From NCBI GenBank assembly GCA_028719205.1, contig JAQUKH010000023.1:1-44935 (forward strand): a DNA stretch of 44,935 bases, given 5' to 3'. Below, piece after piece: positions 4,279-42,877 of this stretch. The number at the start of each line of letters is the position of its first letter. The stretch's first letter is position 1. This DNA is from a bacterium. GTDB lineage: Bacteria; JACRDZ01; JAQUKH01. The position numbers were made by a program, and so were the translations under genes. Under the pieces are notes generated by a model. The model was not told the DNA's origin and did no database searches. It saw nothing but the letters and a program-made list of their open reading frames with translations.

Positions 4279-5180
4279 CCCAGGGAGTTTATTATGAGAA
4301 TCGTGAACCGGTCCTTAAGTGGGATGATATTGCCGGTTATCCCGGAATTAAAGAAAAAGTTAAACAGCTGGTTTCTTTGCCTTTAGTTCGCGGAAAAGAA
4401 CTGGAAAAACAGGGGATACAGCTTCCAACAGGAGTAATGCTCTGGGGGCCGCTGGGAGTAGGCATAAAAATGATGGCGGAGGCGGCCGCAAGCGAAGCAA
4501 AAGTAAAGCTGGTTTACGTTTCAGGCCGGGAAATTTTAGGAAAGCCGAAGGAATTGCGGGAGGCGTTTAAAACTGCCCGTCTTAATAATCCCTGTGTACT
4601 TTTTGTTTCGGATACGGAATGGATCGCGCCCCAGCCGCACGCTGATTATTCCTGGCCCCCCATTCCCCCTGAAGGGGGAGGGCAGGGAGGGGGTTTTAGC
4701 CGCGGAAAACCAACGAGTTTAGCGGATAGGGAGATGACAACGATATTTTTGGAGGAGCTTGATAATATTTCGGGTTTGAGAGATATCGCTCTGGTTGGAT
4801 CCTGTTACCGGATTGATACGGTAGACCAATGTCTCTTTAAAGAAAAATCAAGGTTTAACAGGAAAATTTTTGTCCCGCCGCCTTCGTCCATTGAGCGGGA
4901 ATACATGTTAAAATTTTTTATCAATAAAATAAATCTTAGCGGGAAAAAGTATCTTAATATAGAAAATATTATCCCGAAAACGGAAGGTTACACCGGCTGG
5001 GATATGGAAAATTTATGTAAAGACGCGGTTGTTCAGGCTATTCAAAATAAAAGCGGGGAAATAAAACAGGAGTATTTTGATAGTGCTCTTGAAAGAATAA
5101 AACCCTGGCTGACTAAAGAAATGACAAAAAAATATTATGAACTTTACGAACAGGATTGCCCACACTATTACCATTTCTAA
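4263..5180 (+). CDS. Degenerate AAA-family ATPase-like protein
   Basis: The fold outline of a classical AAA domain (FtsH/Cdc48 type) is clear over about residues 20-230, but the catalytic motifs are damaged. Walker A reads WGPLGVGIKM (61-70) where GPPGTGKT is expected, so the lysine position holds Ile. Walker B reads LFVSDTEW (113-120) instead of IDEID. Sensor 1 reads GSCY instead of AATN. The SRFN segment may keep the arginine-finger Arg. The C-terminal lid (EGYTGWDMENLCKDA) is well kept, arguing against a recent pseudogene. Residues 131-145 come from an inserted palindromic repeat. The ATG at 4263 overlaps the MOSC stop; the frame is open further upstream but only inside the MOSC gene. Probably a non-hydrolysing scaffold or adaptor; target unknown. 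Confidence 0.7.
   Translation: MHNKLAQGVYYENREPVLKWDDIAGYPGIKEKVKQLVSLPLVRGKELEKQGIQLPTGVMLWGPLGVGIKMMAEAAASEAKVKLVYVSGREILGKPKELREAFKTARLNNPCVLFVSDTEWIAPQPHADYSWPPIPPEGGGQGGGFSRGKPTSLADREMTTIFLEELDNISGLRDIALVGSCYRIDTVDQCLFKEKSRFNRKIFVPPPSSIEREYMLKFFINKINLSGKKYLNIENIIPKTEGYTGWDMENLCKDAVVQAIQNKSGEIKQEYFDSALERIKPWLTKEMTKKYYELYEQDCPHYYHF
4655..4693. repeat. GC-rich palindromic repeat inside the AAA-like gene
   Basis: A C-run/G-run element with a core hairpin: arms 4664-4670 (tccccct) and 4673-4679 (aggggga) around a 2-base loop, followed by gggcagggaggggg. It is read through in frame and gives the Pro/Gly-rich stretch PPIPPEGGGQGGG. It falls in the loop between Walker B and sensor 1, a place where AAA domains tolerate insertions. 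A related element lies at 10947-10970. Confidence 0.6.
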
Positions 5181-7563
5181 TTGGTTTTCCTCTAAAGATC
5201 GTTATAAACTCGGGATATTTCTTGTTTCACTCACAACCTTATTTTACGAAATCCTTTTGACGCGGGTCTTTGCGGTTATTATTTATTATCATTTCGCGTC
5301 GTTGGCTATCGCCCTGGCGCTTTTAGGCTTAAGTATCGGAGCGGTATTTTATTATTTAACGCAAAAGTATTTCGCGAAGGATCACGATAAAATTATTTAT
5401 TATTCATTTATTTTTTATTGCCTTAGCTATTTACTTGTTTTTTTGCTGCTTATTATTTTTTCCCGGAACGCGGAAAAGGTATCAACGCTTCTCAATTATT
5501 TTCGCAATCCTTTTTACCGTCCAACCCAGTCAATAACCGCGGAATTTAATATTTCTTCTTATCTTATATTATGGTCCGGTTTCTTTTTTGTATTACTTCC
5601 TTTTGTTTTAAGCGGTTTTTTATCAAGTTTATTTTTAACAATATCCATACAGGAGATCGAAAAAATATATTTTTGGAACTTATTCGGAACAAGTTTAGGC
5701 TGTATCTTTATATTTATTTTTCTCCCGCTTTTTGGCGCCTCAAATTCATTTCTGTTTATATGCGTTTTCGGATTGTTCTGCGGGATAATTTTATTATTTT
5801 TCGAGAAAAAGAAGAAAATATTATTGGCGTCAATCCTGTTCCCTGTTTTCGCTTTATTTCTTTTTGCGGTAAAAATTGATCCTGCCAGAATAAATTTTGT
5901 AAGATTAAGATTTACCCGCCCGTTAAAGAATCAATGGAATTCTTATTCTCATGTAGCGGTTTATCCGTTTCAGGGGGATATGGAGGTAAGCGGTTCATGG
6001 GGTTTAAGCCGCGCGTACACAGGATATGTTCCGCCGCATTTAAACATGGTTGTAAATGAGATCGATTACACGCCAATAATAAATTATGACGGCGACCTGT
6101 CGAAGCTGGAGTTCTTGAAATATGATCTCGTATCATTGCCGTATTATTTACTGGAGGCCCCTAAGACATTAATAATCGGGCCCGGCGGCGGGAAAGAGAT
6201 CCTTGCTGCCAGATTATTTAACGCGAGCCATGTCAGCGCGGTGGAGATCAATCCTTTAGTTATCAAATTTGTACAGGATAAATTTAACACATTCAGCGGA
6301 AGGCCGTATAGCCTGGAAAATGTTGAGGCAATTGTAGCTGACGGCAGGAATTATGTTAAAAGAAGCCGGGATACGTTTGACCTGATAACAGCTACACAGG
6401 TTTACGCGTATTTGGACCCGGTCGGTTCAGCCTTTAGTTTTACGGAGAATTATCTTTATACTAAAGAATCGTTCATAGATTATTTAGATCATTTAAGCGG
6501 TAGAGGTATGATAGCTGTAATAAAACCTTTGATACCGGAAGAACGGCTGCGTTTATTTTCTCTGGCAAGGGCATCGTTAGAATCAAAAGGCGAAAAGGAA
6601 TTTTCAAGACATTTAATGCTTATAAAAGAACGCGGAATGAATATATTTATTGTTAAAAAAGAAAGGTTCAGCCAGGGTGAGATCGATAAAGTAAAAGTCC
6701 TTTGCGGCGAAAAACAGTTTGAGCTGGTTTTTTATCCGGGGCTGGACGGCACAGGAGACCTTTTTGATTTTATAAAAGAAAATGACGCGAACCGGTTTTA
6801 TCAGAAATATCCGCTGGATATAAGCCCGTCAACGGATGATAAACCTTTTTTCTCTACCTTTTTAAAAGCAAAAGATTTCTGGTCAGGGACCTGGCCGAAA
6901 GAAAAAAAGGATTTTCCTCTAAGGGTGATCTTTATTTTGCGTAAATTTTTATTTATTTTTCTTTTTACTGATCTTTTGCTGATAGCGGTATTTGTTCTGA
7001 TAAAAAGGAACTTAACTGTTCCTTCATATTTTTCCTTACTTGGAATAGGGTATATGCTTATTGAGATCACCTTGATCCGAAAATTTATATTTTTTTTGGG
7101 GCATCCGGTTTATGCTGTCTCGGTTATTCTTTTTAGTTTGCTTCTTTTTAACGCGATAGGAAGCTTAACAGGCGTAAAAGTAAAATATATTTTGAAAAAT
7201 AAAATAATAATATTTATTTTACTATTATTTTTAGTAATGCTGTACAGCTATCCTTTGGACAGGATATTCACTGATTTTATTTACCTGAATATTATTTATA
7301 AAATTATTTTGACAACGATACTGATCTTCCCGTTAGGATATTTAATGGGAATACCTTTTCCCTTAGGCTTGAGTTCGATAAAAGAAGAGGATCGTGAGGC
7401 TATTCCCTACATTTGGGCGGTCAATGGCGCAAGCTCGGTTTTCGGGTCGCTTTTAGCCCTGGTATTATCTATGAGTTTCGGATATAATCTGACTTTTTTA
7501 CTTGCCGGGTTGATCTACCTTTTGGCGGGAATTTTGCTTAATAAGAAAAATAATATATTGTAA
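5137..7563 (+). CDS. Polytopic membrane protein with spermidine-synthase-like domain
   Basis: 808 residues. The N-terminal part has about seven membrane segments (roughly residues 25-250). Then comes a soluble Rossmann methyltransferase/aminopropyltransferase-like domain with the nucleotide loop IIGPGGGKEI near 345 and AVEINP after the second strand. It ends near the TDDKPFF motif common in this family, and about six more membrane segments follow (595-805). This layout is that of the fused SpeE-like membrane proteins, whose substrate is usually unknown; polyamine synthesis should not be assumed. It overlaps the AAA-like gene by 44 bases; I found no better in-frame start downstream. Its end overlaps the converging GT39-like gene by 66 bases. 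Confidence 0.75.
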   Translation: MNFTNRIAHTITISNWFSSKDRYKLGIFLVSLTTLFYEILLTRVFAVIIYYHFASLAIALALLGLSIGAVFYYLTQKYFAKDHDKIIYYSFIFYCLSYLLVFLLLIIFSRNAEKVSTLLNYFRNPFYRPTQSITAEFNISSYLILWSGFFFVLLPFVLSGFLSSLFLTISIQEIEKIYFWNLFGTSLGCIFIFIFLPLFGASNSFLFICVFGLFCGIILLFFEKKKKILLASILFPVFALFLFAVKIDPARINFVRLRFTRPLKNQWNSYSHVAVYPFQGDMEVSGSWGLSRAYTGYVPPHLNMVVNEIDYTPIINYDGDLSKLEFLKYDLVSLPYYLLEAPKTLIIGPGGGKEILAARLFNASHVSAVEINPLVIKFVQDKFNTFSGRPYSLENVEAIVADGRNYVKRSRDTFDLITATQVYAYLDPVGSAFSFTENYLYTKESFIDYLDHLSGRGMIAVIKPLIPEERLRLFSLARASLESKGEKEFSRHLMLIKERGMNIFIVKKERFSQGEIDKVKVLCGEKQFELVFYPGLDGTGDLFDFIKENDANRFYQKYPLDISPSTDDKPFFSTFLKAKDFWSGTWPKEKKDFPLRVIFILRKFLFIFLFTDLLLIAVFVLIKRNLTVPSYFSLLGIGYMLIEITLIRKFIFFLGHPVYAVSVILFSLLLFNAIGSLTGVKVKYILKNKIIIFILLLFLVMLYSYPLDRIFTDFIYLNIIYKIILTTILIFPLGYLMGIPFPLGLSSIKEEDREAIPYIWAVNGASSVFGSLLALVLSMSFGYNLTFLLAGLIYLLAGILLNKKNNIL

Positions 7564-41501: not shown

Positions 41502-41708
41502 ATGGAAGCTAAGCATTCAAATAAAATATTTTTAAGCCTTATATTTGCCAGTTTAGTAATGGTCGTTGGCCTTTTTTTCTACAACGCGTTACATGACCCT
41601 GCCAATGAGCCTGTAATTCCGAATATTGATGTTCCAGCGGTAAAAGCAAAGATAAAAGACGCCGGTTTGGTTCCTGTTGAGGCTAAATATTATAAGGAAT
41701 TAAAATAG
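41502..41708 (+). CDS. Small membrane leader ORF ending in an AmrS N-terminal motif
   Basis: 68 residues: one membrane segment (about 10-28), a short polar/Pro linker (PANEPVIPNIDVPA) and the end GLVPVEAKYYKELK. It stops with a single TAG (41706-41708) and the next gene begins at the very next base in the same frame. In AmrS-type radical SAM proteins that I know, an EAxYYxxL motif stands just before the VxCxLCP motif within one chain. So this ORF looks like the anchor and N-terminus of the enzyme encoded next, now a separate peptide. Whether the stop is read through or the two parts associate is unknown. Confidence 0.6.
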   Translation: MEAKHSNKIFLSLIFASLVMVVGLFFYNALHDPANEPVIPNIDVPAVKAKIKDAGLVPVEAKYYKELK

Positions 41709-42692
41709 ATGGCAAAACCCAAAATAATCCAATGTTTGCTTTGTCCTAAAGAGTGTAAGCTTTATGATGGGCAAAGAGGTGATTGCAGGGTGCGCATACA
41801 TCTGGACGGAAAGCTGCAGACCCTCGTATATGGCCGTCCATGCGCTGTCCATATTGATCCGGTTGAGAAAAAACCGGTTTATCATCTGTTGCCTGGAAGC
41901 CAGGCATTTTCCATTGCTACGGCCGGATGTAATTTGCATTGCAAGTTTTGCCAGAATTGGGAAATCTCGCAAAAGAACCCGGAGGAAACCGTTAATTATT
42001 TTATGCCCCCTAAAGATGTTGTTAACAATGCGTTGACAAGCGGTTCAAAGTCAATTGCCTATACCTATTCAGACCCGAATATTTATTATGAATATGTTTT
42101 GGATACGGCAAAACTGGCAAAAAAGGCAGGATTGAAAAATATAGTTATTTCAGCGGGATATATTAATCCTGAGCCGCTAAAAGAACTTTCAGAATTTCTT
42201 GATGTTTATAAGGTTGACCTAAAGGCCTTTAATAATAAGTTTTATCAGGAAATATGTTCCGCCACGCTGCAGCCGGTCCTTGAAACTTTGAAAAATTTAA
42301 AAAAATTGGAGGTATGGACCGAGATCGTTAATTTGATTATCCCTACCTTAAATGATGATTTTACTGAAATACGGAAGATGTGCAAATGGATAAAAAGCGA
42401 ATTGGGAAATGATGTTCCGATCCATTTCTTACAATTTTACCCTCAGTATAAATTAAATAATCTTCCGCCTACACCGCTTGAAACTTTAACTGGGGCCAGA
42501 AAAATTGCCATAGAAGAAGGATTGAATTATGTTTATTTGGGAAACATCCCGCAGGGTGAGGGTAATAATACCTATTGCCCAAACTGCAAAAATCTTTTGA
42601 TCGAGCGGATAGGATATTTTGTGAAGGAAATGAGGATCAATAACGGGTTATGTAATTTTTGCAAATTTAAAATTGCCGGAATCTGGGGGTAA
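41709..42692 (+). CDS. amrS: AmrS-like radical SAM enzyme (AmmeMemoRadiSam type)
   Basis: 327 residues. The N-terminus has the Cys set IQCLLCPKECKLYDGQRGDC (C9, C12, C16, C26); then VHIDPVEKKPVYHLLPGS, the SAM-cluster motif C74-x3-C78-x2-C81 (CNLHCKFC), VDLKAF and a late CPNC...LCNFC group. These are marks of the AmmeMemoRadiSam-system radical SAM enzyme and PflA-like activases. Function of the family is unsettled; it is often found with Memo and AMMECR1 genes, neither present here. AAGGA at 41694-41698 can serve the ATG. Only a TAG separates it from the leader ORF in the same frame. Confidence 0.85.
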   Translation: MAKPKIIQCLLCPKECKLYDGQRGDCRVRIHLDGKLQTLVYGRPCAVHIDPVEKKPVYHLLPGSQAFSIATAGCNLHCKFCQNWEISQKNPEETVNYFMPPKDVVNNALTSGSKSIAYTYSDPNIYYEYVLDTAKLAKKAGLKNIVISAGYINPEPLKELSEFLDVYKVDLKAFNNKFYQEICSATLQPVLETLKNLKKLEVWTEIVNLIIPTLNDDFTEIRKMCKWIKSELGNDVPIHFLQFYPQYKLNNLPPTPLETLTGARKIAIEEGLNYVYLGNIPQGEGNNTYCPNCKNLLIERIGYFVKEMRINNGLCNFCKFKIAGIWG

Positions 42693-42693
42693 A

Positions 42694-42834
42694 ATGACGC
42701 GTAAAGAATTTCTTAAAAGATCGGTTTTATTTATTACAGGATTATTTTTTATCGGAAAAACAAAATTATTTGTCAAAATTTTAGGTTCATCAAAAAAGGA
42801 TTTAAAAGAAGCAAGATTTTATAAAATATTATAA
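42694..42834 (+). CDS. 46-residue Tat-like leader ORF, orphan
   Basis: MTRKEFLKRSV at the start resembles a twin-arginine signal (Arg-Lys variant) followed by a hydrophobic stretch (residues 11-21). The end is KEARFYKIL, matching the EAKYYKEL end of the 41502 ORF. GGGGG lies four bases before the ATG. After its TAA an overlapping ATGGCA follows, as after the first leader, but that frame closes after 11 codons inside a GC-rich repeat. It looks like the leader of a second AmrS-like enzyme whose main part has been lost, or a second peptide working with the first enzyme. Confidence 0.55.
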   Translation: MTRKEFLKRSVLFITGLFFIGKTKLFVKILGSSKKDLKEARFYKIL

Positions 42835-42837
42835 TGG

Positions 42838-42877
42838 CAGGGGGGGTCCCGCCTGCGGCAGGCAGGTAAACCCGCCC
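42838..42877. repeat. GC-rich palindromic repeat between converging genes
   Basis: Core hairpin gcctg (42851-42855) and caggc (42859-42863) inside a longer imperfect palindrome with a G-run on the left and acccgccc on the right. It occupies nearly the whole gap between the mini-ORF and the converging HEAT gene, and might act as a two-way terminator. The core resembles the element at 25990-26014. Confidence 0.5.

Follow-up and report, generated by a model that had tools for sequence, protein, structure and literature searches.

A radical SAM enzyme of the AmrS type and a 68-residue membrane leader lie in one reading frame with a single TAG codon between them, which raises the question of whether this is one chain read through its stop, one chain recently broken, or a pair of separate proteins. 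The earlier note on this DNA, a window of 44,935 nucleotides (contig JAQUKH010000023.1 of assembly GCA_028719205.1), had described the arrangement and left three options: a genuine split in which an anchored peptide acts as partner, regulated read-through, or a recent mutation. The ORF coordinates agree with its description, the leader (MEAKHSNKIFLSLIFASLVMVVGLFFYNALHDPANEPVIPNIDVPAVKAKIKDAGLVPVEAKYYKELK) ending at the TAG and the ATG of AmrS following directly (Table 1). A third ORF, absent from the earlier note, opens 2 nt past the AmrS stop and encodes a small Tat-type peptide (MTRKEFLKRSVLFITGLFFIGKTKLFVKILGSSKKDLKEARFYKIL). Right past this third gene lies a GC-rich palindromic repeat (CGCCTGCGGCAGGCAGG, 42848-42866), whose pattern has only four matches in the genome at up to one mismatch.

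The enzyme itself is a member of TIGR04337, with a whole-protein score well over the cut-off of 220 bits, and its arrangement as a split appears to be new. Its N-terminal segment is missing in cis, since the match begins only at model position 11; the EAxYYxxL segment that occupies positions 1-10 is encoded in trans, and membership by score stands because that segment is no curated requirement of the family. The radical-SAM CX3CX2C motif is intact in 28/28 split AmrS. A search by sequence returned no PDB structure of AmrS, the nearest being pyruvate formate-lyase activating enzyme. For the anchor peptides an identity with the short C-terminal domain SHOCT was considered and ruled out, there being no match to the Pfam model at E<=5 among those of L036, L058, L073 and L113.

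Table 1. Features of the split AmrS locus in the window, with the corresponding genes of the congener G001 and the second AmrS of this genome (G000)
Feature	Position	Strand	Remarks
Membrane-anchor peptide, 68 aa, MEAKHSNK...VEAKYYKELK	41502-41708	+	N-in/C-out by charge; tail EAKYYKELK; TAG stop
Hydrophobic transmembrane segment of anchor, residues 9-25	41526-41576	+	Hydropathy 2.8
EAKYYKEL segment of anchor	41679-41702	+	Equivalent to N-terminal segment of one-chain AmrS
TAG stop between anchor and AmrS	41706-41708	+	0-nt gap
Leaderless AmrS core (TIGR04337), 327 aa	41709-42692	+	390.7 bits, model 11-333
N-terminal CxxCPxxxC motif	41733-41756	+	Directly after missing segment; C9, C12, C16 invariant in alignment
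Radical-SAM CX3CX2C motif, CNLHCKFC	41928-41951	+	Window AmrS
Tat-type partner peptide, 46 aa	42694-42834	+	TRKEFLK signal (RK variant); tail KEARFYKIL; TAA stop
EARFYKIL segment, C-terminus of Tat-type peptide	42808-42831	+	
G001 anchor peptide	L036:4949-5155		EAKYYKEIK, TAA
G001 Tat-type peptide	L036:6152-6295		
Second AmrS, one-chain, leaderless	L042:4272-6226 (G000 contig C10)		Overlaps ApbE-like gene; also in congener (L043)

The closest comparison is offered by G001, a member of the same genus, where an AmrS 84% identical is again accompanied by a separate anchor gene; there the anchor is followed, after a 10-nt gap, by AmrS in another frame and then by a peptide running MTRKEFLK...EAKFYKVFK, and the upstream glycosyltransferase and downstream HEAT-repeat gene are also kept. 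In other phyla the anchor is either a separate ORF or a C-terminal tail. In 13/13 relatives with a measurable anchor, whether free or as the end of a larger protein, it lies in a different frame from AmrS, with gaps of -17 to +199 nt that are mostly overlaps of 4-17 nt. The split, whose recurrence at this place in relatives the earlier note had proposed to check by alignment, is thus found out of frame in the congener as well as in each of the 13 relatives, and the in-frame, gap-free TAG is incidental and, among the relatives measured, peculiar to this genome. Regulated read-through of the TAG, giving an anchored and a soluble form of AmrS, has in its favour the shared frame and absent gap seen here, but it could not yield one chain in the relatives because their anchor is in another frame, AmrS has an ATG of its own, and TAG is an ordinary stop in the window since it terminates 6/41 main ORFs tallied; we regard it as very improbable. 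The same tally speaks against recoding of TAG, as the earlier note had argued. That a one-chain AmrS was broken by a recent nonsense mutation or by an assembly error would fit two frames parted by a single codon, but the congener has the same pair with a different junction and the split clade described below spans about ten phyla, so that this reading is improbable in the extreme. On these gene comparisons we firmly regard the split of anchor and AmrS as real and old, and of the three options it is the split with an anchored partner that is supported.

How old and how widespread the split may be was approached by reading eighty loci of the genome collection together with additional loci of relatives; the frequencies in this set are not natural ones because the sampling was seeded with split sequences. 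In a tree of 96 AmrS cores, 27 of the 28 leaderless AmrS fall in one group, with a single leader-bearing sequence (L106) inside it, and constraining all 28 to one group yields a tree 6.16 lnL above that of the free search (p-AU 0.593). Judged from these sequences, the leaderless AmrS form one deep clade of 28 members from about ten phyla, which include Omnitrophota, Elusimicrobiota, Planctomycetota, Verrucomicrobiota, Hydrogenedentota, Fermentibacterota, Pseudomonadota, Thermodesulfobacteriota, Nitrospirota (L054) and unnamed phyla. The leaderless AmrS of L054, which also has a Tat peptide, fell outside the split clade in a quick tree; an independent split is possible there, and one clade fits equally well.

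What the enzyme lacks can be read from its one-chain homologues, in which a segment of the form [E]-A-x-[YFH]-[YWF]-x-x-[L] was found in 40 sequences, each time starting either 14 (35 of them) or 13 (the other 5) residues ahead of the first Cys, in keeping with the earlier claim that EAxYYxxL precedes the first Cys motif. The leaderless one-chain paralogue of this genome starts MKEALFYEKL, and since it has the segment with no leader, the segment is probably part of the AmrS fold rather than of a membrane leader. In split loci it stands at the end of both peptides, the anchor ahead of AmrS and the Tat peptide behind it. Tails of the form [EP]A.[YFHW][YFW] lie at or near the C-terminus of 16/149 ORFs beside AmrS, against 5/2515 on the rest of that strand and 6/3337 on the opposite one (Fisher p about 1e-19 for the enrichment beside AmrS), and three of those five are in giant Spermine_synth-FMN_bind-Fer4_5 proteins that belong to the system. 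The bare DNA motif is uninformative without the C-terminal position, since its 40 genome-wide matches are no more than the 40 of a reversed-pattern control. The Glu of the tail is not invariant, with PAKYW, TAKYW and VASFW among the variants, and a PqqA-like chemistry between Glu and Tyr (E..Y at i,i+4) was rejected for that reason.

Structure prediction was applied to the read-through chain, with the TAG read as Q and 48 relatives aligned. AlphaFold gave a mean pLDDT of 94.7, with 96-97 for blocks 41-60, which hold the anchor helix (44-53) and the start of the motif, and 88 for blocks 61-80, which span the artificial junction and what remains of the motif; the model fits a docked segment, though most of the aligned relatives had the segment in cis. 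In L038 (810-1967), where an AmrS whose C-terminus is without the usual Cys motif runs in frame into the Tat peptide, be it by fusion or by frameshift, the tail was undocked at pLDDT 32-39, from a thin alignment and with an AmrS C-terminus that looks disrupted. Taken from sequence, docking of AmrS on the peptide tails is likely.

The downstream peptide bears on where the docked enzyme might go. What we call Tat-type is a small gene whose product has a hydrophobic N-terminus that is twin-basic and contains F. Of the split loci that were readable, 24/26 have such a gene after AmrS (21 identified by script and three by inspection, namely L047, L069 and the in-frame fusion L038), as do 0/54 readable loci whose AmrS has a Sec-like or Tat leader of its own, three script matches in leader-bearing loci having been discounted as they are without a Tat-like hydrophobic region. 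Split AmrS have no signal of their own. The Tat peptide and an own AmrS leader are mutually exclusive (Fisher p=4e-16 on a conservative 22/26 versus 0/55), and this complementarity may chiefly be one event, long held, because the split group is largely one clade. The peptides of L056 and L058 match TAT signal models, and the C-termini are commonly LAG, WAG, WSG, WMG or WKG. The motif in the window, TRKEFLK, has RK and not RR, as also in the congener, L052 and L090, most relatives having RR; TatC is encoded twice in the genome. In the Planctomycetota/Verrucomicrobiota group the Tat peptides end YPGPxxP...WAG without EAxYY; Tat peptides of this second type, with [YF]PG[PKR], a WxG C-terminus and no EAxYY, were seen in L096, L097, L103, L121 and L071.

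The neighbours of AmrS also bear on its possible site. Memo or Memo-AMMECR1 proteins encoded beside split or leader-bearing AmrS have a signal peptide or lipobox-like start in most loci. Both this genome and the congener have two Memos, one with a signal and one without, as well as a split AmrS and a one-chain AmrS that has no leader; by their sequences the exported and signal-less Memo pair appears to match the split and one-chain AmrS pair. The two Memo genes of this genome lie on contigs C1 and C15, AMMECR1 being fused to Memo in relatives, and the signalled one lies near a NapH-like FMN_bind/Fer4 protein on C1 (L140), not beside AmrS. The gene that the one-chain AmrS overlaps is, as we recognise it from its sequence, presumably an ApbE-like flavin transferase. 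NapH-like proteins occur in 11/27 split loci versus 4/56 leader-bearing loci, and in L056 and L078 such an FMN_bind/Fer4_5 protein has an extra transmembrane segment past the Fer4 domain and then an EAxYY tail, which because of that segment would lie on the same face as the FMN domain. The FMN_bind domains of NapH-like proteins are extracytosolic (PMC8238504). Giant membrane proteins of 1303 aa with Spermine_synth, FMN_bind and Fer4_5 domains were seen in L062 (8646-12557) and L071 (8745-12656), their domains assigned by domain search in the former and by similarity in the latter, and they end DREAEFYKKLE and DKEAEFYKKVE respectively. Both split and leader-bearing AmrS very commonly have a membrane protein resembling spermine/spermidine synthase as neighbour (L046-L125), and the window has an 808-aa membrane protein (5137-7563) with 21% identity to that neighbour, 34 kb from AmrS.

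We consider it probable that the locus is a three-gene, trans-complemented AmrS, that is, a tripartite extracytoplasmic AmmeMemoRadiSam module of a Tat-hitchhiking enzyme and a membrane-peptide anchor. The enzyme body has neither the EAxYYxxL segment nor an export signal, and two co-encoded membrane-targeted peptides would each supply the segment at their C-terminus. The tail of the Tat-type peptide would bind folded, FeS-loaded AmrS, and the enzyme would hitchhike with this peptide through the Tat pore; the anchor encoded ahead of AmrS, lying N-in/C-out, would then retain the enzyme on the outer side of the inner membrane, next to exported Memo(-AMMECR1), where a NapH-like flavinylated protein could pass electrons to it. 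From the genes we infer export, the periplasmic site, the handover and the electron supply. There is precedent for both halves of such a scheme, as export of signal-less cofactor enzymes by Tat hitchhiking is established (PMC10924467, PMC6719666, PMC4273604) and electron transfer by NapH-like flavinylated proteins has been described (PMC8238504). The fuller picture, of a radical-SAM enzyme outside the cytoplasm that is the cargo of a 46-residue Tat peptide and is then passed to another peptide bearing the same tail, next to a flavinylated protein that transfers electrons, is put forward tentatively, and somewhat against our own expectation. The main weak points are the RK motif in the window, the supply of SAM outside and the YPGP/WAG subtype of Tat peptide without EAxYY.

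Two other readings of the peptides have to be set against export. Both peptides might be tethers that keep AmrS at the inner, cytosolic face of the membrane; split AmrS have no signal of their own, SAM is cytosolic, and topology is not proven by hydropathy and charge, L088 and L090 having positive charge past the transmembrane segment. Tethering without export is nevertheless rather unlikely, given the twin-Arg signals of most downstream peptides, the exported Memo partners, the Sec or Tat leaders of one-chain homologues and the tails of L056 and L078 that follow an extra transmembrane segment. Alternatively the peptides might be substrates, with a cytosolic AmrS modifying the E-A-x-[FY]-Y tail in a RiPP-like manner and the modified Tat peptide being exported. 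It would suit this that the small peptides next to a radical SAM enzyme share a conserved aromatic tail, that the Tat peptides frequently have LAG/WAG ends and that a radical SAM domain related to Memo-Ammecr1 has been noted in systems that process peptides (PMC7159879), but one-chain AmrS have the segment in cis at a fixed register and no Tat peptide, the Glu varies as described above, and large redox proteins end in the same tail, so that we hold this reading to be unlikely as well.

AmmeMemoRadiSam proteins occur across life, with human MEMO1 and AMMECR1 among the relatives, and we know of no function for the bacterial system. Among the titles and abstracts covered by a literature search, none described an AmrS split, the peptides or an exported AmrS; Burroughs 2019, which lay outside its coverage, is said to describe Memo-AMMECR1 systems. 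The locus resembles the known system (AmrS TIGR04337, Memo PF01875, AMMECR1 PF01871) in the score of its core, its intact radical-SAM and flanking Cys motifs, the Memo and AMMECR1 genes beside its relatives and the two Memos of this genome, and differs in that two peptides supply segment and leader in trans, whereas the usual member is one chain, often with a Sec or Tat leader; Desulfoferrobacter suflitae (L112) has such an exported one-chain form. As in the Tat hitchhikers, such as the BcGDH gamma-subunit, PaoABC, hydrogenases and formate dehydrogenases, a signal-less cofactor enzyme is paired with a Tat-bearing partner (PMC6719666, PMC4273604, PMC10924467), but here the partner is of about 43-75 aa, little beyond signal and docking tail, and the proposed cargo is a radical-SAM enzyme. 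The formate dehydrogenase region TAT target (TIGR02811) is likewise a small Tat peptide and the L058 peptide matches it at E=3e-4 over residues 2-51, yet below its cut-off (21 versus 48.45 bits), with another enzyme and largely through the signal. The FMN_bind and Fer4_5 membrane proteins that adjoin many split AmrS are akin to NapH-like flavinylated proteins (PMC8238504, which makes no mention of Memo, AMMECR1 or radical SAM), from which some here differ by an added transmembrane segment and EAxYY tail.

With enzyme, anchor and export signal on separate small genes, binding, location and electron supply become testable one by one, and the locus shows that small peptides of 46-75 aa, which annotation might overlook, can form part of an enzyme. 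The periplasm is not expected to contain SAM. If AmrS is indeed exported, it would place a radical-SAM protein in an unexpected compartment, tied to flavin-based electron transfer in the envelope, it would raise the question of how such chemistry could proceed in a place where no SAM is expected, and it would define a class of minimal Tat adaptors.
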